In this document: piece by piece, positions 3,248 to 60,600 of the stretch
Numbering within the stretch: the stretch's first letter is position 1
Layout of the letters: each line of letters begins with the position of its first letter
From: Aldrovandia affinis
Lineage: Eukaryota; Chordata; Actinopteri; Notacanthiformes; Halosauridae
Assembly (NCBI GenBank): GCA_029706075.1
Contig: JAINUG010000173.1
Span: forward strand, 496,001 to 560,000
DNA: 64,000 nt
Direction of reading: 5' to 3'
Translations under genes and position numbers: made by a program
Notes under the pieces: model-generated
The model's input: the letters and a program-made list of their open reading frames with translations, nothing else
What the model was told of the DNA's origin: nothing
The model's database searches: none

Positions 3248-6200
3248 CTAGAAATAGAGCATAGAGATTGTTCATTCAGAACATGTGTTATCACTGCTGA
3301 GCCTCTGTGTGATATCGTGGTTTCTGGGTCACACTGCATTTTGAAGAAAGGACCTTGAATTTTATACTATAGACAGACTGTAAAAAAAGAGAATGTTTAT
3401 CTTTTGATCCTTTGAGAAATAAACAAATTGCAACATTCCATTTTCTTGTTAAAACATGATGTTAGGAGTTAGTTACAGTACATAGTTTGTAGAGCCATCT
3501 AGTTATTATACTGTAAAATTTACATTTTGACAAGTCTTCCCAAACAATTCCAAAAACACATTCCAAAATTATTACACTGTAAAAATAGGACACCACATCC
3601 ATCAGAAACAACTACTGCATACTACACATTATTATACTTTCATTAACTTTCAGTACCAGTACATTCATTGTCTTAATTGCAAGTCTTCAAGAATATATCA
3701 GTCCATAACATTATCTATACAGTAAATTATATATCATATGTCATATTTCGTGTGCTTCATGCATGGTCATTCTCAAAATACTGATGAGACTTTAAACTTA
3801 CGCAGAAGGCTATTAAAGGAAATGTTTTAGTCAGACACAACATTTACTCATTTGAAACATGTATCTGTATTTTCCAACGAGTGAAACAGGAATATAGGAG
3901 AGTGAGTTGTCTTTCTTATTAATTTTTTTTTAATGACAGGCAGTTTTGAGGATGACAAAAACGAGGTTCACGTTGCAGTGAGTAGTTATGTCACAGACTG
4001 GACAGGGCGTTCCGGGAGATGGGAAAGGGGAATTCTACTTTTGTAAAAGTTCTCTAAGCAGACCCTAAAAGGTATTCTGTCAGTCCACAAGAGGACATGC
4101 CAACCTACCTCTGACACAGTATTGCATGCTACATTTCACCTGGAACGTAGAATTCCCATTTCTCAAGTGGTATTTTAGCATTTCTCTGATAAAAGGAGTC
4201 CCTGTGGTTATGAGTACAGGCGCATACAGTGCTGTTTCAGGGTGTTAGGTAGGCTGTGGGGCCCTGGGTTGGACGTTCCCGTTAGTCATGGGTTTCAGGC
4301 AGGCCAATAGGATACTGTACCATTCCCCCCGCTACCCTCCATGTTCCACAGGGCGTCAAGGATGCTGGGGGCCTGCCCTGCGTGTGCTGAACATAGCCAT
4401 TTAATCGCAGGAAAGAGACAGAGAGAAAGGAGAGAGACGAACTTCATAAACTCCGACAGACGGGGGTGGGGAAAATGTACAGCTCAGGCCAATGGCTTGA
4501 TACATGTGAATGGGGTGTGGGCATGTTTTCTTCAGTTTCACATCACCGGCTATCCTTTGCCCATCGTCCTTGTAGGTGGGGTTTATGGTGTGGAGCGTTT
4601 TAGATTTGAGGCAGTGTTTTGTATGTGATAGACCGAGGTTTAAATTAACATGCCATTTCCTAATGCAAGAGGAAAATTCAACAAACAGTTATTGGACTGT
4701 GTTGTGGACAATATTGAGACATGCAGCTCCTAAGAGGGATATACGATGGCTAATGAACACTAGCCAGAAATAATGAATTAAATTATCAGGTATTATGGAA
4801 CTATACAGTTGGTTGCTGTCTATATAACTGTCAGTAAAATAGTTATCAATAAACCAGAATCTGAAAACTGGTAGTGCTTTGATACTGATATTGTAAAAAT
4901 AGTGATTGCCAAATCTATAATTGTAACAATTAGCTCTCTAGTCCTCAAATGAGCTCTCTACGCTGAGCATGATTTTACTCGGTTATGCTCTGTTCTATGG
5001 CACTCGTTCCTTGTGATTTTCTGATAAATCAATGTGCTGGTGCTGTCAATTATGACGCCTGTCATCTAATAAGATGTTAGGCTCTGTGTGTGTGCAGGAT
5101 GTTGCTCACCGTCCTCGCAGTGTAGCCCGCTATAACCGGCGGAGCACGCACACTGGCCGTTGGTGCACCTGCCCCCATTGTGGCACTGGGCATCCACCTG
5201 GCAGGTGTCCTTCACCACCTCGCACCTTTCACCTGCCGTAAGGGGGTAGTGTGTGGGGAGGGGGGGGTGGGGGGGGCGTGGGTAAATGTGAGGACACCAT
5301 AGCACTGTGACAGCAACACACTTACATTAGGTATTGATTCGCACTTATGTTAGGTAATGTTTTTTGATAGTTTACTAGGTTACTCTGTCTAGTTGAGAAT
5401 GTAAACAGTAGTACAAAATCTACCCAACTGTTATTTATTACCATGTTGTATGTACATCCACTTGAATCAATAGTCCAATGCATAACACAGTATGTGAGAT
5501 CTAGATTGGAATTTTTATATATACAAAGCTTAAACCTAACCAAAGTAACACAGCTAGTTTGCTACCTTTACAGTTAACTTACTTCCTTTACATTACAACA
5601 GATGTAGTTAATAGTATTTATAATACAGTATTGTATTATATTTGTAACAGTATTGTCAAAAGCTGCTGACAAAGTACAAGACTTCTAAACCCGATCTGGA
5701 TAGATATCTGATTGCAGTCATGCAGGACTCAGATCAGCAGAGTGGTTGCAGTTGACTCACCCTCAAAGCCATCCTGGCACAGACACTGGTACTCGTATTC
5801 AGCATTGGACATGCAGTTGCCCCCATTGAGGCAGGGACGGCGGTCACAGGGGCTGCTGTCAATGCACTGTGCAATTGCCCTGCTCTCCATGAAGCTGTAG
5901 GACAGGTCAACCTTCTTCCCATTGATAGACACCTGGACAATGGACCCAACTATCAGTGATTCTGTTCTTCTCCAGTTAGGCAAGACAAGTTCAAAACTAT
6001 TATCTGATCTCATATAACACAGGTTCAGATCTGCTTGGTTACATGACAGGATTGTACAATGAACTTGAAATGTGTATCTAGCTGCTGATATTCAGCAGGA
6101 TATGCCAATTATCAATTTATAATTGGCATATCCCCTGATTCCTTGGAGGTGGTAACTGTGGAAAGATATGCAGTAGGTATTATTATGTATTAGGGCTTGT

Positions 6201-8806
6201 ACCTGGAACATACCATGCATCAGTATCTGTCTTTCATGTGATTGCTGCTCTTGCTGTTATGCCTGTGTGTCAGTGCTGTATTTGGATGTCTGCTGTTGGC
6301 GACAGTGTGAATTTCCCTTTGGGGTTTAATAATCTATTCAATCTATTTAGGGCAGTGGTGGCCAATCCTGGACAACCAGAGGGTATGGTGTTTTTGATTT
6401 CACTCTGACATCAGCAAAACAAACTATACATTTTAAATATTGTTTCTCATTTTCTCCCAATTTGGTGGCCAATTGTACCCTCTTCTAATCCAACTACACT
6501 TTCCCTCATACTGTGAGCTCACTGCTACAACCCTGGACCCTGCAGTGAAAAAGACACTGAACTGCCTCCTCAGAGACGGAACTCGCCAAGTCGTTGACTG
6601 TAACTGCGACACACAGAGCTGTGTTTGCACACAGAAAACTCATGCCGACTTCCCTCCCTCCTCCCTCTGGGGCAGACAGCCAATCACTGCCCCTGAACGG
6701 GACTCCTGGCCAGGGCAGGGCTGGCTCAGCCTGAGCTCGAACCCAGGCTGCAGTTGGCAACCTGCCTTAGAAAAAGTGTCTTTACTGGCTGTGCCACCCA
6801 TTGGCCAAATCAGCAACCAATTTAGACCCCAGGAACCTGACTAAGTAACTTAACTGTGTAATTACCTGCTTTAATTGATCAATTAACTTCTGGAGTAACA
6901 TGAAAACCAGCAGACTATCGCTCACCAGAACTAAGGCTGATCCATTTGGTGCGCCTTACCTCTCCTATACAGCCCTCAAATAGCACACTGACATTAGCAG
7001 GTTTGGGCAGGATGTCCATGCTGGGGACTCCACCCAGGTACATGGGGGTGTGGATGTTCAGGCCCTGTGCTTTCCCCGGTGACGACCTCCTGACCTCCCG
7101 GGCCAGGTCCACCTTCAGGGTCCCGTCCTTGTTGAGGCGCTCGGCGGCTACACGGTGCCACTGGCCCAGGGCGATGGGCTCCCGGCTGCGCAGAATGGCC
7201 ATGCCTGCGCAGACACACAGTGCATCACCATAGGGGTTATTGAAGCCTCTCTGCTGCACAGAACTCACCCATTAATGCCCAATTTTTTCCCAGAGATTTC
7301 TAATATATGATCATTTGAACAACCTTCCATATAAACATGTTGTGCAGTTTTTTCCCAATTTTTTTGTTTTGTTTTGTTCCCAAGCAATGATGATTCGAAT
7401 GTACGGCCACTTTAGTGGCCGGTGGGCACATACCTTGTAAGAACCCCTATGCAATGTTATAGTGTATTTTGTTGAAAAATGAGAGCAAAAATTTGAGTCT
7501 TAGGCACATTGTGTCATCTTTTATCATTAAAACTTGATCAAATACATGATATGAAGTCATTTAAGAGCCCAACTGTTCTCGAGAAAACCTAAAATATGTC
7601 CAAATAACATGGATAAACTGAATACTAGTCATAAAATGTCAAATTTTATGGAACACAACCCATATCAGGGGTAATCCTGTTCAAAATTAAAGAACAATAT
7701 TCTTAAACATTAGAAAACCATTTAAAAAATATAAAACACCTATGAATTCATCTTCTTTCAGGTAAAAATAATTCAAATATATTAAACAATTTTGTCCTGA
7801 AAACAGACAGAACATTACCATTTTAATTAAACGGATCATGTTTTTCATGTACTGTGTACTGTGATAAAAGAAACTCAGAAATTCATAAACTGTTAGAACA
7901 AGTCAACAACTGGGTCATTAGATCATCCATTTGAACATGTATTGTGCAGTCTTTAGACTTTAGAAATAGTGTTTTAATTTATATTTATTACATAGGATTA
8001 CACCCGCTAAGGTAAAAATGCCTTTAGATATGTATATGCCCAAACCTTAAAAGGGATTTGCCCACTGGCCACTTTAGTTGCCGGGCGCATTTCCGAGTAA
8101 ATATACAAAAAAATATTGAACTTACATAAGATGTCTTTAGATTGGCTGTTACTAGAGACGTTGCTTAATAGGAAACTACAAAAACATCACCAAAAAATAC
8201 TTGTTAAATACTTCAATTTTACCTTTTATTTGGAAGCTTCGCCTCTGCCATAACGCCCAGAAATCGTAGCAGGAAGTAAACGCCTCAACATGAAGTGCAT
8301 TTTTCCTAAAGTTGTTTCAGGCCCTTCCCAAGAGCGGCAGTGTAGTGTAATGGTTAGGGAGCTGGGCTTGTAACTCAGAGGTTGCTGGTTCGATTCCCAG
8401 GTGGGGGCACTGCCGTTGTACCCTTGAGCAAGGTACTTAACCTGAAATGCTTCAGTAAAATATCCAGCTGTATAAATGGATTGAATATAAAGAAATTTAA
8501 AACTGTGTAAGTTGCTCTGGATAAGAGCGTCTGCTAAATGCATTTAAAAAAAAAAAAAAAAAAAAAAAAGTAAGGTTGACTACTTGCATGCCTGTTGTTT
8601 TTAAAACATCTATAGTCCTCCAAAAAATATTCACAGACGGAAAAAGAGAGGTAGAGACTTCGGCAACTTTAGCTGCCGGTGGGATAAAACAGGTAAGACA
8701 GTCACTGGCCAATCACATTTTTGTGAAGTAAATTTTTTTTAATTTGTTTTACTTCCAACAGGGGCTCACGGCCATAAAACATTGGGCAATGGTTTTAAAG
8801 CCCCGG

Positions 8807-25600: not shown

Positions 25601-26837
25601 AACTTCCACTCCAGGCGCACGGGCTGAGCCCCGCTGTAGACACGGCATCGGAAGCTGGCGGACTCGCCCTCCCGTACCGCAGCACTGTGGGGCTCGATGG
25701 AGATGATGGGTGTCTGCAGGCCTGCTCCACGGAATAAAGACACCACCTCAGTGGTCATATCCCACCTCCTAATGCGAATGATAACACTACAGGCAGAGCA
25801 GGAGAAGCTAACCACACTGTTGCACCATGGGGACTGTCCCTTCCTTCCTACTGCCGCAGCTCATGTAAACCAGCAGTCCTCAAAATAATTTATCCAGGAG
25901 TACAAAGTAATTGAAACCTAAAAGTGGTGGGCAGAGTCATGAATTACTGGCTGAGAGGAGACATCCCCATGCATTTACATTGATCATATAAATAATAATT
26001 ACAGCAGTTCTAGTTAGGTGTTTATATGTATTCTGATAGCATTAAGCTCAAGATGTGTGCTAGACTGACAATCCAATGTAGCATATGAATGAAGGCAATT
26101 ACAGGCTGTTGTCACAACAGATGCCCCTTACAGGCATTCATGTCTTTGAGCACCACTGACATACCTACCAGCAAGCTATATGGTTCTACCCAGAGATGTT
26201 GGGTCGGACAAACTGTCAATGCTAGGGGCATCACTGTGGAACACAGGTTTTCTCACTGGAATCTTTATACAGAAGGCCATGGGGTTGGTTCCCGAATGGG
26301 ACATTGCAGCTGTGCCCTCAGGCAAGGTCAGTGGACCTAACCTCCCCTCATGTGAATAAGTGGGCAACATATGAAATGCGAGCACCCATAGGACAGTCTG
26401 AGAAAGGGCGTCCACTGTGCAAACACGCGGTGTAAAAATAACATGGTGACTAACCACGGAGACGGATCATGTGAAAGGGCGAGCCTGCGACTGCTAAAAT
26501 AACAAACCCCCCTACTTACGGGAGGAGGTGGCGGTCACCGAGACGGACACGGACGCCTGCCGAACCGTCGGCCCACCGTCCACCCTGCAGATGTACTCTC
26601 CAGAGTCATCCTGAGAGGCCTGGAGGATCCGAAGCTGGGTTCCCAAAACCTGGTAGCATGCACACACACACACACACACATATATACACACACACAGACA
26701 CACACAGACACACACAGACACACACACACAGACAGACACACGGAAGAACACACAGAGACACACACAGACAGACACACATACAGACACACACAGAAGAACA
26801 CACAGACACACACACAGGCAGAAACACACACACACAG

Positions 26838-26885
<48 letters not shown>

Positions 26886-27068
26886 AAAGCACAGAGGCAC
26901 ACACAGACAGACACACATACACACACAGATACGCACGCACAGAAAAACACACAAATGCGCGCATATACGTACACACAAACACACACACACACACACAGAC
27001 AAAAAGACACACAAATGCATGCATGTATAGAAACACAGAAACATATACATATACACATGCAGATATAT

Positions 27069-27123
<55 letters not shown>

Positions 27124-27708
27124 TTTGTAAGAAGAATTGCAAGATCTAAATAGCCTTTATGAAATGTTCCCCTGAAAGACACTAGTGTAACAGACAGAGA
27201 TATTATATCTCACGTTTCCCTTAGAAAAAACTTGCTTCCTAAAAGGCTGTCAAAGGCAATTACAACACTGTCCTGGAAGTTACCCTACAGGGTAATAATT
27301 CAGTACAATAACAAATGCTTACAGTCATTCAGTGTGGGAACAGGAAGTGGCTTATTTTTCAGGCTGCATGTAACATGCAAAGTATCCCACTCACTGAAAT
27401 CCATAAGGGCACATTCTGTGCGAGGCACTAACCTTTGAGTCTTAAATCAATTTTACTGCCAGCCAACTGCGATTAACTTAGCTGGCTGGCTTGGAAAGCT
27501 GGCTTGGGAAAGGAGTGCGGCTATCACAACAACAAATAATAATATGGAACATGAACATGTATGCATGTGTGCATGCGTGTGTGTGTGTATACGAATGCTT
27601 GTTTGTGTGTGTGTCTGTGTGTGCATTTGTACGTGTGTGTGTGTGTATGTGTGTGAGTGTGTGTGTGTGTGTGTGTCTGCGTGTGCATTTCTGTGTGTGT
27701 GTATGTGT

Positions 27709-48600: not shown

Positions 48601-51600
48601 AGGTGGTCTTACCGTTCACAATACTGGCCGGTGTAGCCAGGCTGACAGGCGGTGCACTGGTATCCTCCATTACCCGTGCTCTCACAGGTAGGAGAGAACC
48701 TGTAAAATGGCAAGATGAGGGCACACTCATTTCAGCTCTGCTGATTGAAACATGCAGTTTCGACTTTTAGGTGAGCCACTATTTTTGTACCCTTGAGGGA
48801 GGTCCTCAACCTGATTTGATTCTGTAAATATTCAGCCGTATGAATGGATATGTACAAATGTAAGGTGTCTTCGTTATCCATGGTAAGGGTGTCCGAAAAT
48901 CAAGGGAATAATGTAAAATCAAATGGGTCGAAAGACTTCCAAAGAAATACAAAGTCAATATTCTCCTTTCCCTGTCTGGTGGGTTAGGGTTGGGTTATGT
49001 CAGGGTTTGGATGGGGTGTGACGCCTGTTGCTCACTGGGTGTCGGGGTCAGTGTGTGGGCAGGCGCAGGGCTGGCAGTCCTCAGGGGTCCCAGCGGTGGG
49101 GTCGCCGAAAAACCCGGGAGCACACTGCTCACATAGCTCTCCCATGGTGTTGTGGAGGCAGCTCTAAAGACAGGAGAGGAGAACAAGTTTACTAAAACAG
49201 TTTTTGTGAGAAATTAAACTAACTGTTGCATTTAATTGTAAGTCAGGAAAAATGGAGATTGAATCTAGTGAGCAAAAGACTACTTCTTTTTTTAACTTTA
49301 TGCTACAAATCCATAAAAGGGGAATTCATTCATTTGTTTTTGTTTGTCAGGGATATAGCAATAGTATTGTTACAATGTGAGAAAACAAGCATCAGATTCA
49401 TTGCATTAAGTTTTTATGGCCAATGGCTAATTTACAACACCTGTCCCCAATAAACTACAGAAAAAAGTATCAAGAAATAAAAACAAACAACAAAATACAA
49501 CAAACACATTAGAAAAAATGCATCCACTCAATTCAGAAAAATAGCAAATAATTACACAGAACAAAACACAAGCAACTGTAAATTACATGATGAGAGCAAC
49601 TATAGTTATAAAAAAGTTTTAAAGTTCTTAACCATTGCCAAAAACATTTTGTCTGAAAGCTCTGTTGAATGTATTAATAAGGGGTTTAATTTGCCGCTCA
49701 TGCAAACATGTGCCCTCTCCCACAGGCGACAGGTAGAAGATGGGGCGCATACCGTGCAGATGCCAGTCTCGGGGTGGCAGGAGTCCGAGTGCCCGTTGCA
49801 CTCACACAGCTCACAGTGACCAAGGTAGAGACCCCCTCCGGTGCGGCTGTACCCTGGGGCGCAGTCCTACCAGCACAGACAGAACGGGTCACAGGTCAGA
49901 AGGCAATAATGCAGACTTCCAGTATTTTAAAAGATTAAGTCAATTCAATGTGATTTTAATTGGCTTAGGGTTGGATATCTGGGCATGGCAGAGTGCAGGC
50001 TTCACCTGACAGGACAGCCCCTGGTAACCGGGTGGGCAGCGGCACTGCTCCACCTCCAGGGCCTGCACCAGGCCACTGTAGTTGGGCACGGCCACCTCCA
50101 TGCTGATATGGGAGATGCTGGCTGACAGCATGTCGGTGTAGTAGGAGGCGCGGATCAGTATGTCATCCAGGTCTGCCAGGACCATCATCAGGTGCTCCCG
50201 GGTGGCGGGCATCCCATCTGGACGACGCCAGTGTTCCTACGGCAACAAAGAACCGTCATTTCAGGCACCACTGACCAGTGCATCGCAATCTACAGAGTGG
50301 GCAATGTCTAAATTGGGAGCATCAGCCAAGTGGCAATAATATAATGCAATGTCATGTCACATTTGATGTTCAAGAACTACACAGACTTATACAGGTAGAG
50401 GCATTTCTACGATGATGAAAATAGCAACCCTTATACTTAATACACACTAAAATACTATACATTTAAAACAAATATAAAACTAGAAATAGTAAACACACCG
50501 TGCACACAAGTGCTGACAAGAAATTCAATTCAATAACAAAAAGGCATTCTGGCTAACCTATTAGTCAAAAAGATTGTTTGGTGGGTCATATCCAGATCTT
50601 AAGATGGAAGGTGCACTCACCTCTTTGAAAATGACCTCAAATTGACGGGACTCTCTTGTGCCCTGTCCCCTCTGCCACGTCTGGCGAGCAACAAGGGTAA
50701 TGTCATTACCCTGAAAGACAAAGAAAATGAGGAAGAAATAAAAACAGTGTTACAGAACATAATGACACCATTCTTAAGGACTGTCACCTCAACATTTCCT
50801 GCAATATTCTGACTGTATCCATTAATTAAACAGCATTAGGGGAAAAAGAGTAACCCTTGCCTTCAACCCATACTCACAATGAGCTGGACATCGGCGTCTT
50901 CAATGGGTGTTCCCCTTTGACCCGCCACATAGGAGACGGTGTATTTCAGACGTCCGCCATAGGACCCCACCTACGAGAAGAGACAAGGAAAAGTCACAAA
51001 GAAGCACAGCCCTGCACTAATCATGCTGCCCTTCCAAGACCTATAGAGAACCAAGATAGACGGGGTCCTCAAGTTCAACACTTAAATGGAATGCTCTTGT
51101 CAGCAAATGACCGAGAAACTTAGTTAGAGGCTAGAAAGCCCAGGTGAGACTTGTTTCAGCAGAACTGGATTAAATGACATTTTGGCAGGTCATTTGGGGC
51201 CTACAAGTAAGATGATGACCTTGACTGCAATCAGTGACATTCCAACTTTATCAGCTGCGAAACGTGATTCAAACATAAACACTTAATTCTTCTGGAAAAA
51301 AAAAAAAACGTACACACTGCATTCTCAAAATCTGGGCCATTTGCAATTTGTGTTCTAGTACCTGCACAAAACAGTTAATCCTGCACAGGACCCCATTACT
51401 GCCCAGAATAAACTAAGACCAAATGGGCTTAGAACCATACTAATTGTTCATACTCACTCCACCTAGAGAGATGACCAAATGAACAAGATGAACCAGATGA
51501 ACCAATGTGGGTTCTTCCATGTTAACAGCAAGCAGCATTTGGTACCGCCCGCACCCACTGCTATCAGCTCAGGTGGAAGAGCGATAACGTCTCTGGTACT

Positions 51601-54600
51601 CAAGTGGCCAGAGGAAGGCCTGGCTTGGTGTGTCTGGTTACCTTATCCCCTTTGAACTGAAGCGGGAGCTGCCAGAAGAGGACGTCGTCTGGATGCAAAC
51701 TGAAACCTTTGTAGACCAAAGCGTACTGCGGCAGAGGGAAGGAGAGGTGTGAGAGAGAGAGAAGGAGGGAAGGAGAGAAGGAAAAACTGCAAGGCGGGGA
51801 TGCAAAGCAGAGAGCGGGCAGGGCAACAGCAGAGCAACTCACTAGAGAAAGGGTTCGTTTTTAATGCTCGTTTTTCATTTTGGTCTTTAAGTTAAAAACA
51901 GAGGTGCGTAGAACAAAAAATGACTGAACTACATTCATAAAATCTTTTCCTTCATCATGGAAATTGTGTTAAATTGTATTCTGTTGGCAAACTTATATAC
52001 CTAAATATAACACAAAGTTCTCTGATGAAGGCAGCATGCCAAAATGTTTGAACTGTAGCCTGATCTGTAGAAATAGTTCACACCTAACCTTTCACTGGCC
52101 TACAAAAAAAAAAAATATTTCTTGCATGGACTTTGGAAACTGGTTTTGGTTCACTTTGGGCTGCTGAGTCCCAATCTGAGCTCAGATCTGCTCTATCACA
52201 TCAAGTTTTGTGCTATCTGTGCTCCATATTCATGGATTTTACAAAAGTTGACCATCCAGTCTGGCAATCTTGGTGGGGATAAAAAAGCAAAAGCTTGATT
52301 ATTCTCACCAAAACTAATTCATTTAGGGCCTTGTCCTAAAACATAGTCATAAAAACATGTTTTACATATGTTTTTTGTGATTTGCAGCTGTGAAGACTCT
52401 ACCTAATCTGCTGTTAATCTAAGTTGTACAATGAAATATTGTCATTGAAGTAGGTACCTTTCATTGTAAACATTTTTGCATCTATCGATCTTCTAATGCA
52501 ACAATTTATTTCAACTTCGAGTGTAAAAGTGAGTGTTTTCTCAAAAATAATGATTTTTCATAGTTCAAAAACCTGATGTGATAGGCAAAAACTAATGCCA
52601 GATTTGGATTCAAAAGTTACCTAGAATCTATTCTGCAAAAAAATCGTGTTGACCAGTGATCTGCTACGATGAGATAGGGAGACCGCGCACCAGGTGCAGA
52701 ATCAAAATAAAATCACCACTATGAATATAAAAATAAAGACCAGGTTTGGCACATAGCACAGACCAAACATTACTGTCTGTTACCCAGACCCCTTGAACAC
52801 TTGATTTATAAAGACTGTAGAACACAGCTTGTACAGTCACTCTGATCACTGCATGCAATCCATAGGAAAATGCCCCCCAGGCCAAACCAAAAATGTGACT
52901 TTTTCTCAATGGATCAATGCCTCGAGAATATTTCAGATCCTGAATTGAAGCATTATTTATGACGGGCTGGACAGGTTTGACGAACGGTAACAGCATATTC
53001 TAAAAAATTCTGCCAAGACTGTTATATCATTTGAGCCAGCGGGTGGCATTTTCCTGCTGTTGTCGTGGGCAGGGCTGGGCAGTAGCTGGGGACTACCTTG
53101 CTGGTGGAGCCAGGTCTGGCACCATGCAGACCCACAACATTGCCGCCCTGTTGAGCCTGTGGCAGGGCCTGTCAACACCCACACCAGCCCAAACAGAAGC
53201 AAAAACCTGTCAGTTGCACAACTCCTCATATTAAGTGCCATAAGCTTCAGTGCAGGAATGTTGTAAACCTAGAACTTCTGTGAAATAATATTCAGTACCT
53301 GGGGGCTTGGGTGCCGGGAAGAGTAGCCGGGGGCCGTGTAGTATGGCCCGACGGCCCTACTGGAGAAGGAGAGGCCAGACGGAGCTGGCAGAGGGGCGGG
53401 GACACGGGTACCAGAAGTGGAGGGGGAGCCAGGAGGACCGAAGGAGGAAGAGGACGAGGATACAGAGGAGGGAAGTGGGAGGGGACCAGGAGGGGAAGGC
53501 TCTTTGGAGAAGTTGGAAATAAGCGCCCAGATTTCATCGTCGAGCTTCTGAACTTCATCAACAGAGGACTGGAAGGGGAGGGGCGGAGAAGACATATTGA
53601 CCAAAAAGCTCACCAAAAATGACAGGATTCAAAAGCACAACATGCAAGGTATGGGTATGGGATGCAGGGGTGCATGCTGGGTAATTTCTTGACTAAGGGC
53701 CTTTCGTTAAGATACCACAATCTTCACAGAACCGACTGGAAGATTTGTGATGAGAAAAATACTAAAATGGGAGTATAATTGCAATATAAAATCAACTACA
53801 GGTGCACAGGAGCGGTCTGCTGAGGTACTGACCTCTAATCCTAAATCTAGACTGATGTAAACTGGTCCAGATGGTAGAGAACACTGCACACACAATCCAT
53901 TCCTACTAACTACATTACATATGCCTGCAGAGGACATGTAACCAGTTTGTTATCTTCTGAAAATGTAAAATTCACATGCTGTGGTTACTCCATGCCATCA
54001 CACGGTTGCATTCTAAATGAAATGGGTTGTTTCCATGGATCTAACAAATTGTATCCTATAATGCTGTACCCTATCATTTCAGCTTATTTACTATAAACAT
54101 ACTGAATGGCATGAAGAGATAATTGTTTGATGTGAATAAAAACTACAATACACAACTAAACTTGTGTGTTGCTCACATTTACAATGTTGTGTAAAGGCAC
54201 ACCCATTTTCAGTCATGTCAGATGATGAAAGCAGCCAATAACCTTAACAAATACCACTTTCTTTCTTTAAATCTATTGTTTCTGGTATTTTTCCACCATT
54301 TTTCTCCCAATTTAGTAGCCAATTACACCCTCTCTTTTTCATGTCAATCACCCCCCCTCGTATTGTGAGTTTGCTGCCATAGCCCCGAGACCGGCCGTGA
54401 CCAAGCAATGTGCCGCCTCCTCCGAGCTGGCACTCACAGAGCTGCTGACTGTTTTTGTGGTACATCGGAACCACTCCTATATGCAGCAAAGTCATATCAG
54501 CTTTCCTCCCCCCTCCCTGGGGCAGACAGCCAATCGCCGCCCCACAGTGGCACTCCCGGCCAGAGCCGAAACTGGCGCGGCCGGTGGAATCGAACCCACA

Positions 54601-57600
54601 AATACCACTTTCTACACTTAGTTTTTAAATGTACTTTTTCTCTACATACAACCCAGTCAAATGGAGTGCAAAAAAAAGGCCACCACACAACAACACGATA
54701 CCACAAAAAAACAATGCATTCATTGTGAGATGGGATCCACAATATATCAATATATTAGTGGACTGCTGGAGGCTTGTCAATGAATAGTGGGGCCACCCAG
54801 AGCCTATGGATACCTTGATGGCTCGTTTTGACCTTGAGTTTCCTTTCCCCATGGTATCCACTAATTTCCATATGGAGGCATCCTTCCTCAGTTGCTCCTC
54901 TGTCCATGAGTCTTTCTAGTTTTGTGAACAAAGCAAAGCCCCTGTAACCCTTTGCCATGTCGTACCTGTCTTTTCCTCAAATTGCATAAAATATCCAGGC
55001 TAAGCATTAACAAAAAACATCACATTACAAAAGGGCAAAGGATGGGCACATGCTCAAAACAGTGAACTGATAGTCAGCAGCACAAAGGCCACACACAAAA
55101 TAATGCCTAACTGGTAACGCTGAATGAACTGCTGATCTGGTCTTTCTCTAATAAAAATGGGTTGTTCTGCATGTGTTGTCCAGAGTCATTTTCATTCTGG
55201 CTTTTTACATTCTTTTAGGTACACAAATAAATATAGTACACTATACGCAAAGGCAAGTGTGTCAATGCTGTAACGGACTACAATGACAGAGGAAGCATGG
55301 CTGAATCCGTTGGTGTTCCACCCCATTATGCTGTCAAACTCTCACCAAACATATATTTAAACTACCAGTGCTGCATGTAAAATACACAGCAGACTGAGAG
55401 AGCCTTAGATGTGAGGAGGTGGTGGAATGCAACCTTTGCTCGGCCCAGCCTCCAGTCAGTATGTGGGCTCTACAATGTCTTCGACAAAATGCCTTAATGC
55501 ATAATTATGTCTTTGATACTGCTACATTAATTGTTAAAATAATGATTTGTTAATACTGAAGAATTGTTAAAATACTAATCTCAGTCGCTTACTGGGCTAA
55601 GACTTCATACTCAGATATAATGCCAAAGTAAGAGAACAGTCCCCACATTACCTTTTATTTAACATGCAATAACATTCATTTAAATTCAGTCTATTAAATT
55701 ACCTGTTTTCAGCTGTAAACTTGAATACATTTAACTGAAGTATTTGAAAAGGAATTTATTTTGCCTGTATCATTCAGACCTCAACATAAATACTAGGCAT
55801 TAAACACTAAATAACAGTGATATATTTCATATAAAATCATGCAATTCAATGCAACCATGCATTCAATGCAAATATGTTAATTATATCACTTCAGTTATTA
55901 TTATAACTTCACAATATATACCCTAATTAGAATTAGACTTAATCTCCAAGACAAAAGAAGAAAAACAATCATGCTTCTCAGCTTTTCAATGCTACATTGT
56001 TAGCAGTCACATGAAGTTCATGCTTTTTTAATTTTTTACTTTTGTTTTCAAACAATGTATTGACATGTTGGGAACTCCTAAAATGTTATGTTGATACCCA
56101 GAAATGTCTGGAAGATACTGTAATAATGAATTTCCATATTCACACAGTTCTTAATGTGAAATCCAATTAGATTGTAAATCTCCAATAAACTTAAGTCCAG
56201 CAACACAAATCACATCCTGGCACTTTCTGCAGGAATTGCTGACTTCTGTTACACAGAGTGTAGAGTCTACTTATTCTGTGTGTATGAAAATAAAGTGTTC
56301 ACAGTCTTGTAATTAGTATAGATAATTAGTGCTGTCATATTACTGCCATGCCAAAAAAATATATATACACAGTCTCTACACACTAACAGCCATAGCAATA
56401 AGCAGGCACAATCAGTTTTTCTTTTCAATAACCACTAGAACAATATGATCTTTGGCAATCATCATCCAAAGTCAGAAGTCTAAGTCAGCTGCAGTGACAC
56501 TGACTAAATAAATCAAAGTGGCAGGCAGCTGTGCTTTACCTTGTGCTCTCGTCTCATACGAGCATAGAAAGCTTCCCTCTAAAAGTAGACAGAGGACAGA
56601 AAATAATGCATTTAATAGGACACGAGTGGCAGAACGCATATCCTTCCTCTGACAAAAGCCAAAATCTGGAATGACTGAGGTGCCGAGTACCTGATGCCAG
56701 AAACAAATCCAAATCTAGTAGCACTCTTGCTGCTGCATACTTTATTATAGGTGTGCTTTACAATGGCTGCCCATTTCACAAAAAAATGTTAACAGCACAG
56801 GAAATAGCACAGGATATCTTTAACACAGACTGTACAAAGTAAACCCTTTCTTGTCATGAGAAGCATTGCGGAGACAAAAGCTCTTTTTAAGCAGCAGGAG
56901 CAAAAACAGAAGGGGGTAGGCTTTGGCACTTTGTGCATGAAAGGTGAAAACCTTACGCAAGAGCACTGGAAGAAGAAGTTGAATTGGAACAGACAATCAC
57001 ATGATGTAAATATCCCATGGGTGGGCCATTGGGGGCACACAATATGCACTCTACCTTGTCTCCCTTGAAGGCCTCAGGCAGTTGCCAGTAGTGGGCTTCC
57101 TGTTCCAGGTTTCCAAAGTTGCTGAAGGAGAGCTGGGTGCTGTCGGTGGAAACCTCCACTGTGAAGCCTGTGGTGATACGGTTGGTGCGCTGTCGGTTCA
57201 CCAGTGCGAGGTTCTGGAAGTTTCCTGGTGTGAAAACGGAGGACACCTGCCACACAGAGAGGAACGTTTTCAACAGTACCATCTGGGACAATACATTTAG
57301 ACAGCTGACTAAGTCACTTTCTAAAGAAGGCTTTAAATCATGATTAAATCCAAGTGTTTATTTTTTTCTTCACAAACGCAGTTTGAGCAATCGCCAAAAT
57401 GAAATGATCAACATGTGCTTGTCAAAAAAAAGAATGCACATTTGCAATTCAAAGAGGAGAACAAATGTTGATTGAATCTTGTCTGATATTTTCATACTTG
57501 TTTTTCCTCTACTTAATTTCAACAAGTCAACAAAAACATCTATCTTACAATGAGTAACTGCAAGAGTGGGCTAAACATGCTTATATCAGGCAGGCAGTGT

Positions 57601-60600
57601 GGTATAATGGTTAGGGAACTGGGCTTGTAACATTAAGGTTGCAGGTTCAATCCCCAGGTGGGACACTGCCGTTGTACCCTTAAGCAAGGTACTTAACCTG
57701 AATTGCTTCAGTTAATATCCAGCTGTATAAATGGATTGTAAAGAAATGTAAACTGTAAGTCGCTCTGGATAAGAGCGTCTGCTAAATGCCTGTAATGTAA
57801 TATCAGATGCTTCCATTTCTCATTTAAACCACGTCCCAAGTGGCAACGCTATGGCAACACCATAACATGTTTCTAAGTTCTGAACCCACTATTAAGCACC
57901 ATTCCATTCACAATAAAAATGGCTGAGAGCACGGTATGCCAGGGGTGTTATTCTTGATGCACAGAGAAGGTTCCCAGCATCCAAGATCCCGCAGCCTCAC
58001 CACATCTCTGTAGTAGTTGGAGCTGGTGCATTGCTGCGTGACGCCCATGCAGAAGCAGGAGAGGCAGCCGTCTTTGTGATCCGAGCTCAGATGGAAGTGG
58101 CCCACCCTGCAGCTGCTGCAGCCAGATCCCTCCACGTGTGTCTGCCAGAGGACAACAAGGAAGAACAATGGCCAAACAAGACCTAAGCTCGTCAAATCAT
58201 CACAAACAATGCACACAAAGCCCCATTCAAACCGTTTGCCATTCACTTACAGGCCCAGGCATGGCAGACCAAGAAGCTCATGTCATAAATATAAAGCATC
58301 AGATACTGATATAAGAATACATAATGATGAGAACTAAGATAATCTAAGCTCTAAAGAATATCCAGTACGGCATCATGCCTGGACTTGAATACCCCAAATG
58401 TTTCTGCCTCAACTATCTGACCTAGCAAGCTGTTCCAGATATTGACAACTTTCTGTGCAAAAACTCAATTCCTGATATCCGTGTGGAATTTGCCTTTAAC
58501 TATTTTCCACCTGTGTCCTCTTGTTCTGCTAACCAAACTTATCTAAAAAAACTATTTGGTAGTTGACTTTGTTAATCTCATTTAAGAATTTAAAAACCTC
58601 AATCAAATCCCCCTTAGTTTATGTTTGCTAAACTTGAATAGATTGAGCATCTTAAGTCTATCCTCGTACCTTTTACCTTTCATACAAGTGGTTCTCTGTG
58701 GCTCAGTTGGTAGAGCACAGCGTTGGCAATGCTTAGGTTGTGGGTTCAATTCCCACTGGGGCCACATATACTGATGAAGAATGTATGCATTCACTACTGT
58801 AAGTCGCTTTGGATAAAAGCGTCTGCTAAATGGCATATATTATATATATACCAGGTACCAATTTAGTTGCCCTTCTTTGTACTTTTTCAAGAGCTTCTAT
58901 ATCTTTTATGTGCTGTGGTGCCCAGAGCTGCACACAGTACTCTAAAGTGAGGTCTGACAAAGGCATTATATAACAGCAATATTTATACTGATTTATACTC
59001 AATACCCTTTGTTATATATCCCAGCATCCTGTTTGCCTTTTCACTGTTGCAGCACACTGCTTAAATTCAGACTTTGATCAACTACAACTTCCAAGTCTTG
59101 AACAAATTGATCACATTCAAATTTTTCTCCTCCAATAAAATACTTCAGTGATATAATGTTATTTCCCACATGCATAACTATACATTTAGCAATATTGAAT
59201 GTCATCTGCCATGTTTCTGCCCATTTCTGGATTTTATTTCAATCATTTTGGATTAAATTATCCTCAATTCCAAACTGTTTGCTAAGTTTTGCTTCATTGC
59301 TAATTTAAATAAGGAAGAGCAGAAGTCCTAACACCAAATATATAATATCATAAGCCTGGTTCAAGTCACTTTGTAGCTTCCTCAAAGAAGGAATAATTCC
59401 AACTTGACCCTAATGATACATTCCAGGATTTTACATGAGATACAGGTTAAAGTGAAAGGCTTATAGTTCCCTGGGTCAGTACGGTTCCCCTTTCACCAGT
59501 GTTTAGAGATTGCATAAAAATATCTGTCAATGGTTTATATATAATCTCCCCAATTCCATGAGAATATATGCTATCAGGGTCTGCTGTTTATTTGTCTTCA
59601 GTTTTTCCTAGTACTTCTCCATCCCTTATCTCTAAAATCTGTATATTGACTTTTAGGCATATTTATATAAAATAAATATATATGGTAAAGCTCTCAACAA
59701 AGTAACTGTTTGTTTATTATTATAAACCATAGCCTCTTCCTTATTCTTAATGCACATAACCTCTTCATTAACTTTCCTTTTTCTACTGCAATATTGAAAA
59801 AACTGCATAGAATGACTTTTTACATCATGGGATATGTTAATTTCAAAGTGCCTTTTAGCTGCCCTTATTTCCTTTTTAGCCTTAGCCTGCATATTGCAAT
59901 AATCTATATTAATCTTGTTTCTCTCCGAATTGCTCTGTTCATATCACAGTCTCTTCTTTTGACTTAAAGTCTCCCGTAGAGATGTATTCATCCACTGTGG
60001 AGAATTTTTCCAATCTTATTTTTACTTACTTTGGGATGAATTTACACTGTGCATCAACAATAACCCTTTTAAATGTAGTCATTTTTTTTGTTCACAGTTT
60101 TGCAATCTAGTTTTACCCAATCTATATTACTTAACTTCTCTCTCATTTTATTAAAGTCAGCACATCTGAAGTTCTAGACTGCACTATGATCAATTGTCCT
60201 TAGTGGTTCCACTACCTCTGAGCTGCAAATTCTGTCTGGATTATTACACAAAACCAGATCCAGTACTGTTTTACATCTTGTAAACTGAGTAACAAACTGC
60301 ACCAATAATAATCATTAACCACATCTAAAAACTCCTCTTCACATTTACCCTGACCTGACCCTACTTCCCAATTAAGAGAGGGGTAATTGAAATCACCCAT
60401 TATTAATGTCTCTCCTTCCTGACTGGTTTGTTTTATGTTTCCATAGAGCATAATATTTATGTTGCTGTCTGAAGCTGGAGGTCTATAGCATACTCCTATA
60501 TTAAGGCCCTTCTCATATTCTCCCAGTAGTCTAATCCAGATGTCCTCACAAGGAATGAGAAATTGAATTCCTGCAATTTCCTGCACATTCAGATTCTTTC

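Follow-up and report, generated by a model that had tools for sequence, protein, structure and literature searches.

Does the gene for perlecan, a large basement-membrane protein, hold in a fish two interchangeable versions of the core of one of its laminin IV (L4) domains? The question is raised by a stretch of Aldrovandia affinis DNA of 64,000 nucleotides (nt) (contig JAINUG010000173.1, positions 496,001 to 560,000 of the forward strand), here called the window, in which a reading made from the letters alone (the sequence-only reading) had placed a candidate mutually exclusive cassette of three extra exons inside the third L4 domain of perlecan. Comparison with a second perlecan gene of the same genome shows a conserved cassette of four exons, the last of which, with 28 codons, resembles the core-encoding end of the usual exon. 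On this comparison we lean modestly toward an old, functional four-exon cassette that some transcripts use in place of the usual 64-codon exon.

Exon Organization of the Third L4 Domain

The gene is identified as perlecan from the order of laminin-EGF, L4 and immunoglobulin (Ig) domains in its frames, seen by eye, and from the PDB perlecan chain 9i5a, which is also the single chain against which the likeness to human perlecan claimed earlier was checked. The gene of the window (minus strand, contig C813) is compared throughout with the second perlecan gene (contig C1113; L007 denotes C1113:1965001-1975000). The six stretches named in the sequence-only reading have the coordinates and translations claimed for them, lie on the minus strand and are each preceded by AG and followed by GT. 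The three extra blocks among them are all real, but the list was incomplete, as a fourth phase 0-0 exon at 54814-54915 had been overlooked, and the proposed junction 56540/53568 may instead be two junctions, 56540/54915 and 54814/53568. The exons, named below by their codon counts (47, 64, 13, 34, 90, 28 and 31), are as follows in the order of the transcript.

58001..58141, minus strand: upstream exon, 47 codons, laminin-EGF first half and start of the third L4, 3' end in phase 0; paralogue L007:2253-2393, 74% amino acid identity
57055..57246, minus strand: usual L4 exon, 64 codons, phase 0-0; paralogue L007:2695-2886, 77%; Laminin_B 43.8 bits with neighboring exons
56540..56578, minus strand: cassette exon 1, 13 codons, phase 0-0; paralogue L007:4165-4203 NEAFFARMRQAHK; blastn E 1.3e-9
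54814..54915, minus strand: cassette exon 2, 34 codons, phase 0-0; paralogue L007:5173-5277 (35 codons), 56% amino acid identity; blastn E 3e-11
53299..53568, minus strand: cassette exon 3, 90 codons; paralogue L007:6151-6669 (173 codons, head conserved); blastn E 1.9e-7
51642..51725, minus strand: cassette exon 4, 28 codons, second version of the L4 core, phase 0-0; paralogue L007:7813-7896, 82%; blastn E 3.7e-29, and Pfam
50878..50970, minus strand: shared downstream L4 exon, 31 codons, starts VGSYGG; paralogue L007:9649-9741, 68%

The 28-codon exon terminates at the same residue as the usual 64-codon exon and then joins VGSYGG in frame.

Conservation in a Second Perlecan Gene

A protein-level search of the window's own genome (1.22 Gb) with the 28-residue query finds, apart from the window's own copy, a single match, at C1113:1972813-1972896 with 82% identity. 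The 64-codon exon likewise has a full-length second match on this contig (77%), and in each gene it also matches a different L4 domain more weakly (36%). L007 carries homologues of exons 47, 64, 13, 90, 28 and 31 in unchanged order. The DNA comparison of the two genes, in which the 64-codon exon aligns with E 5.5e-46, contains a further match at window 54926-54856 (E 3e-11) outside the blocks proposed earlier, and this leads to the fourth cassette exon at 54814-54915. The homologues of this exon have 34 and 35 codons, so they differ by one whole codon. All four cassette exons are phase 0-0 with AG/GT borders and are conserved in both genes in the same order, with their frames and splice-site dinucleotides intact. 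Between exons 47 and 31, the sole collinear match outside the exons and their edges is one stretch of ~40 nt (DNA comparison, E up to 0.01).

Judged from substitution rates, the cassette exons are under purifying selection and are kept in a homologous gene. The set of 96 alignable cassette codons comprises all of exons 13 and 28, 34 of the 34-codon exon and 21 of exon 90; the other 69 codons of exon 90, whose homologue has 173 codons, are Ser/Pro/Thr-rich with an unreliable alignment and were left out. By NG86 the nonsynonymous (dN) and synonymous (dS) divergences of these codons are 0.193 and 0.868 (dN/dS 0.22), and those of 142 flanking codons (exons 47, 64 and 31) are 0.166 and 0.781 (0.21). 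The same sets give by YN00 a dN of 0.206 and a dS of 0.647 (0.32) for the cassette and 0.157 and 1.72 (0.09) for the flanking codons. Amino acid identity between the genes is 69% for the 13-codon exon, 56% for the 34-codon exon, the lowest of the four, 71% for the head of the 90-codon exon and 82% for the 28-codon exon. The 34-codon exon also has an acceptor that by eye is weak, with no clear polypyrimidine tract, as might be seen if the cassette were a set of decayed remnants, that is, old exons no longer spliced. This is very improbable, as the two diverged genes have retained the frames and splice-site dinucleotides and show a dN/dS well below 1.

Shared neighbor genes that might date the gene pair were sought with 20 stretches of 10 kb, ten per contig; among 194 match rows, those with at most three matches per query and above 50% identity look by eye like perlecan's own 3' end and repeats. 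The dS between the genes is 0.8-0.9 by NG86.

The 28-Codon Exon as a Second L4 Core

The 28-codon exon and the end of the 64-codon exon form an ungapped alignment of 26 residues with 11 identities, the score of which was reached by none of 100,000 shuffles. Placed between exons 47 and 31 of the window gene and scored against Laminin_B (Pfam PF00052, cut-off 22.4 bits), the 64-codon exon gives 43.8 bits, the 28-codon exon alone 41.3 and neither exon 22.8. The full cassette gives 39.4 bits, falling to 19.8 without the 28-codon exon and staying at 39.7 without the 34-codon exon. In the second gene the corresponding scores are 38.7 for the usual exon, 36.4 for the 28-codon exon and 17.4 for neither. 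The usual (43.8) and cassette (39.4-41.3) versions both exceed the Pfam cut-off; since the construct with neither exon already just passes it, mainly through exon 31, it is the gain of ~19-21 bits and not the cut-off that serves as evidence. From these scores, alike in both genes, the 28-codon exon is nearly the equal of the usual exon as a source of the L4 core, and the W, L, P, G, D and K of the core are present in both versions in both genes. The second version of the L4 core proposed in the sequence-only reading is thus borne out, by a similarity beyond chance and by the restored Laminin_B score.

Over the same 26 positions, the 28-codon exons share 9-11 identities with the 64-codon exons and 10-12 with the upstream-L4 exons, the 64-codon and upstream-L4 exons share 11, and the two 28-codon exons have 21 in common with each other. 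In BLOSUM62 sums the 28-codon exons are outliers (48-62 and 64-71) compared with 75-77 between the other two groups, a position that fits either great age or faster early change. The 28-codon copy looks old because it is no closer to the 64-codon exon than to another L4 domain. By these comparisons it predates the split of the two perlecan genes, and it may be as old as the L4 duplications, for which 26 sites are too few to settle the matter.

The 13-, 34-, and 90-Codon Exons

The first three cassette exons give only sub-threshold matches in Pfam and NCBIfam and no match in PDB up to E 10. Details conserved in the cassette are EAF[YF], an [IM] position and [FI]S, with an N-glycosylation sequon. 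The 90-codon exon has a conserved head, which holds an N-glycosylation sequon (NFS and NIS in the two genes), followed by a fast-changing Ser/Pro-rich stretch, with 48-49% Ser/Pro/Thr over the whole exon in both genes.

The head of the 90-codon exon and the 34-codon exon were each compared with four L4 first halves, in 8 comparisons each. The notion that the 90-codon exon duplicates the first half of the 64-codon exon (SSV is found near both starts in the window gene) is rejected with p 0.11-0.85 over its 8 comparisons. The 34-codon exon gives low values (p 0.009 and 0.0002) against one half only, that of the second gene's upstream L4, with p 0.28 and 0.88 against the window gene's upstream-L4 half and 0.41-0.98 against the third L4; a low p for one of four halves is taken as chance. 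A furin-like RSKR in the 34-codon exon reads RAER in the second gene and so is not conserved. In both genes the 300 nt preceding the 90-codon exon contain two GCATG motifs; they carry little weight because many combinations were scanned (8 splicing-factor motifs, in consensus form, on 2 sides of 7 exons).

As a separate observation, the 34-codon exon (54814-54915) and the head of the 90-codon exon (53500-53568) have a weak mutual likeness with an IWxL[VIL] motif (shuffle p 0.004-0.03, 4 comparisons), and the two (L007:5173-5277 and 6151-6213 in the second gene) may be diverged copies of each other.

The 13-codon exon contains a methionine conserved in both genes, and the intron that separates it from the usual exon includes the conserved ~40-nt stretch. 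Both would suit an alternative promoter in this intron, from which a shorter transcript would begin with the cassette and continue into the rest of perlecan. However, the acceptor of the 13-codon exon (ttttag) is conserved, and the methionine is preceded by 7 residues, 5 of them identical and 1 similar between the genes, so that the exon is probably translated from further upstream. Among translated pieces of at least 10 residues, moreover, no other conserved coding block is found on either strand from the usual exon to the 13-codon exon, and an origin of the cassette as a promoter-linked 5' end is improbable.

A Candidate Long-range Intronic Stem

A pair of complementary intronic 10-mers is placed on either side of the first three cassette exons.

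56842..56851, minus strand: intronic 10-mer, candidate stem arm 1, AGAAAGGGTT, within the ~40-nt stretch similar in both genes
51846..51855, minus strand: intronic 10-mer, candidate stem arm 2, AACCCTTTCT, exact reverse complement of 56842-56851

Each gene has one copy of AGAAAGGGTT between exons 47 and 31; it starts 204 nt (window gene) or 239 nt (second gene) downstream of the 64-codon exon. The single copy of AACCCTTTCT in each gene ends 121 nt (window gene) or 142 nt (second gene) before the 28-codon exon. With low-complexity words set aside, this is the only complementary pair shared by the genes at k = 10. When the introns were dinucleotide-shuffled 4000 times, a complementary 10-mer pair common to both genes arose in 49 cases, and in none with its arms in different introns, the latter being a criterion chosen after the pair was seen. 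Ten other homologous introns used as controls have no pair at k = 10 and four at k = 9. The conserved 10-bp complementarity may represent a regulatory RNA stem, for which the controls are mixed.

The intronic stretch around the first arm (56822-56861, ~40 nt) is 82.5% alike in both genes (E 0.004), and the candidate stem accounts for only 10 nt of it.

Possible Use of the Cassette

The argument for an exchange of the cassette with the usual exon is structural, in that the core running through GDK-VGSYGG could use one copy at a time and both copies are conserved. The Laminin_B score that is lost without the 64-codon exon is regained with the 28-codon exon, and the core residues are kept in both versions and both genes. 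With respect to the properties of mutually exclusive exons (MXEs), phase and ends are interchangeable (phase 0-0 and AG/GT throughout, in both genes), and mutual homology is found for the 28-codon exon over 26 residues, with none that is consistent for the 34- and 90-codon exons.

In such an exchange the L4 lobe would retain its WQLPxxFxGDK-VGSYGG core, and the first ~36 L4 residues would be replaced by 137 residues (221 in the second gene) consisting of a basic piece, two short IWxL pieces, helical-looking and one with the conserved N-glycan site, and a Ser/Pro-rich linker. In laminins L4 is described as a β-sandwich at the side of the laminin-EGF array (PMC6744579). By analogy the perlecan L4 would be placed in the same way, and the likely effect of the exchange would be an altered binding or projection of the L4 side lobe with the laminin-EGF rod intact.

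Since every junction is phase 0-0, the reading frame survives a swap, joint inclusion or partial inclusion alike, and the earlier statement that all-in inclusion would preserve the frame and duplicate the core holds for both genes. Joint inclusion, which we regard as unlikely, would keep the usual exon and place all four cassette exons, or just the 28-codon one, behind it at the FKGDK-VGSYGG junction, either constitutively or in certain tissues, giving the third L4 an insert of 165 or 28 residues (249 for the full insert in the second gene) and two core strands, one of which would pair with VGSYGG. It would retain the first half of L4 that the swap loses, all exons of the window gene together score 50.0 bits for Laminin_B, in two stretches and above either version alone, and the candidate stem would place the usual exon near the 28-codon exon. 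One copy of the core would be redundant, yet the core residues are kept in both copies in both genes, and a simple insert has no need of the same end residue and phase in both copies.

Several points weigh against the swap. The alternatives are dissimilar in length, 64 codons compared with 165 in four exons (249 in the second gene). Steric exclusion is ruled out because the intron after the 64-codon exon, which separates the competing exons, is too long for it in both genes (476 nt in the window gene, 1278 nt in the second), and exclusion by frame or nonsense-mediated decay is ruled out because all junctions are in phase 0. The cassette contains no recognizable L4 N-terminal half in the 34- and 90-codon exons that were tested, and as these have no consistent first-half homology the swap would cost the L4 sandwich some of its predicted strands. 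The YN00 estimates show weaker constraint on the cassette than on the neighboring exons, though the ratio is still well under 1. For the candidate stem, pairing of the flanks does not exceed that of shuffled flanks (p 0.25 and 0.24, each from 2000 shuffles), and the same introns offer stronger duplexes (-46.3 compared with -34.7 in the window gene and -44.0 compared with -39.6 in the second). Arm 1 in the window gene has a better partner in the second gene's arm 2 (-43.2) than in its own (-34.7), and because the arms are identical in both genes there is no covariation support.

The exclusion mechanism on offer is thus one conserved 10-bp pairing with mixed controls and no competing set. The stem (56842-56851 with 51846-51855) may help a switch by looping out the first three cassette exons; by itself it does not favor exclusion of the 64- and 28-codon exons, because looping out exons 13, 34 and 90 brings 64 near 28. 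The fuller proposal of a block switch, in which one third-L4 exon alternates with a four-exon block, the core is about as old as the L4 duplications and the stem loops out the first three exons, is accordingly a speculative one that we hold doubtful. Of the cassette as first proposed, the conserved coding exons in the third L4 and the alternative core stand, and mutual exclusion is plausible only.

Other Features of the Locus

Upstream of the window, a long same-strand open frame of 566 codons (C813:564063-562366, minus strand; 605 codons in the second gene, C1113) sits in both genes within the intron after the laminin-EGF exon ending GFTGRRCER. It includes a conserved coiled-coil-like stretch, 62% identical over 90 residues, and a conserved end, IPI[QR][MI][FI]P[ND]Y, followed by a stop. 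A Pfam search with 169 of its residues gives only sub-threshold, mostly coiled-coil matches. A nested gene and an alternative last exon are both possible readings of it. Further upstream, an 85-nt stretch (C813:565642-565558, minus strand) is 86% identical in both genes and reads GMG[GE]A..NQC.PFHI in both, the frame on its 5' side being broken in the window gene; it is perhaps a promoter or 5' exon of the long open frame. Within the window, an intronic frame piece at 60215-60598 resembles an endonuclease fragment of a non-long terminal repeat retrotransposon, and a long (TG)n/(GT)n-like stretch at 26515-27156 adjoins an Ig exon and reads VCVCVC in one frame.

Comparison with Known Systems

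The functions of internal laminin L4 domains are described as unknown (PMC6744579). A natural second L4 core in two genes means that a comparison of the two isoforms would give a direct handle on the role of the L4 lobe in perlecan. If the cassette is used as proposed, a vertebrate perlecan would diversify its rod region by splicing, and if the block switch also holds, perlecan would have a regulated, exchangeable side lobe, lost or overlooked in mammals.

Both core versions, taken with the shared exon, pass the Pfam cut-off of the Laminin B/L4 domain (PF00052; PDB 4yep and 9i5a), from which the cassette version differs in having no recognizable first half. The alternative exons of unc-52, the nematode perlecan gene, are located in the Ig region, whereas the fish cassette lies in an L4 domain. 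The two are alike in that unc-52 is a perlecan with alternative coding exons, the isoforms of which are described in a perlecan review (PMC6266596). The human HSPG2 variants ("miniperl" and others) are treated there as splice or start-site variants, and those described differ in lying in domain I or giving domain V fragments and not affecting the third L4 (PMC6266596). Splicing in general is covered in a further review (PMC9010944), and the available portions of these two reviews make no mention of L4 alternative exons. Among the open-access perlecan papers listed, a scope that excludes subscription papers and gene-model databases, none was recognized by its title or the opening of its abstract as describing such exons; fish gene predictions may already include them.

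The RNA-structure class of MXEs has one docking site and several competing selectors (PMC6071210), whereas the perlecan genes of this fish have a single pair. Changes between MXEs are described as keeping the fold and altering specificity (PMC7954323). The fish cassette resembles homologous MXEs in having two versions of one domain core, neighboring, long kept and with the same end residue and phase. It differs from them in that one exon would alternate with a block of four and that homology within the block is confined to its last exon and to the C-terminal 26 residues of the usual exon. What would be new here is an MXE-like cassette in perlecan in which one exon would face a block of four.

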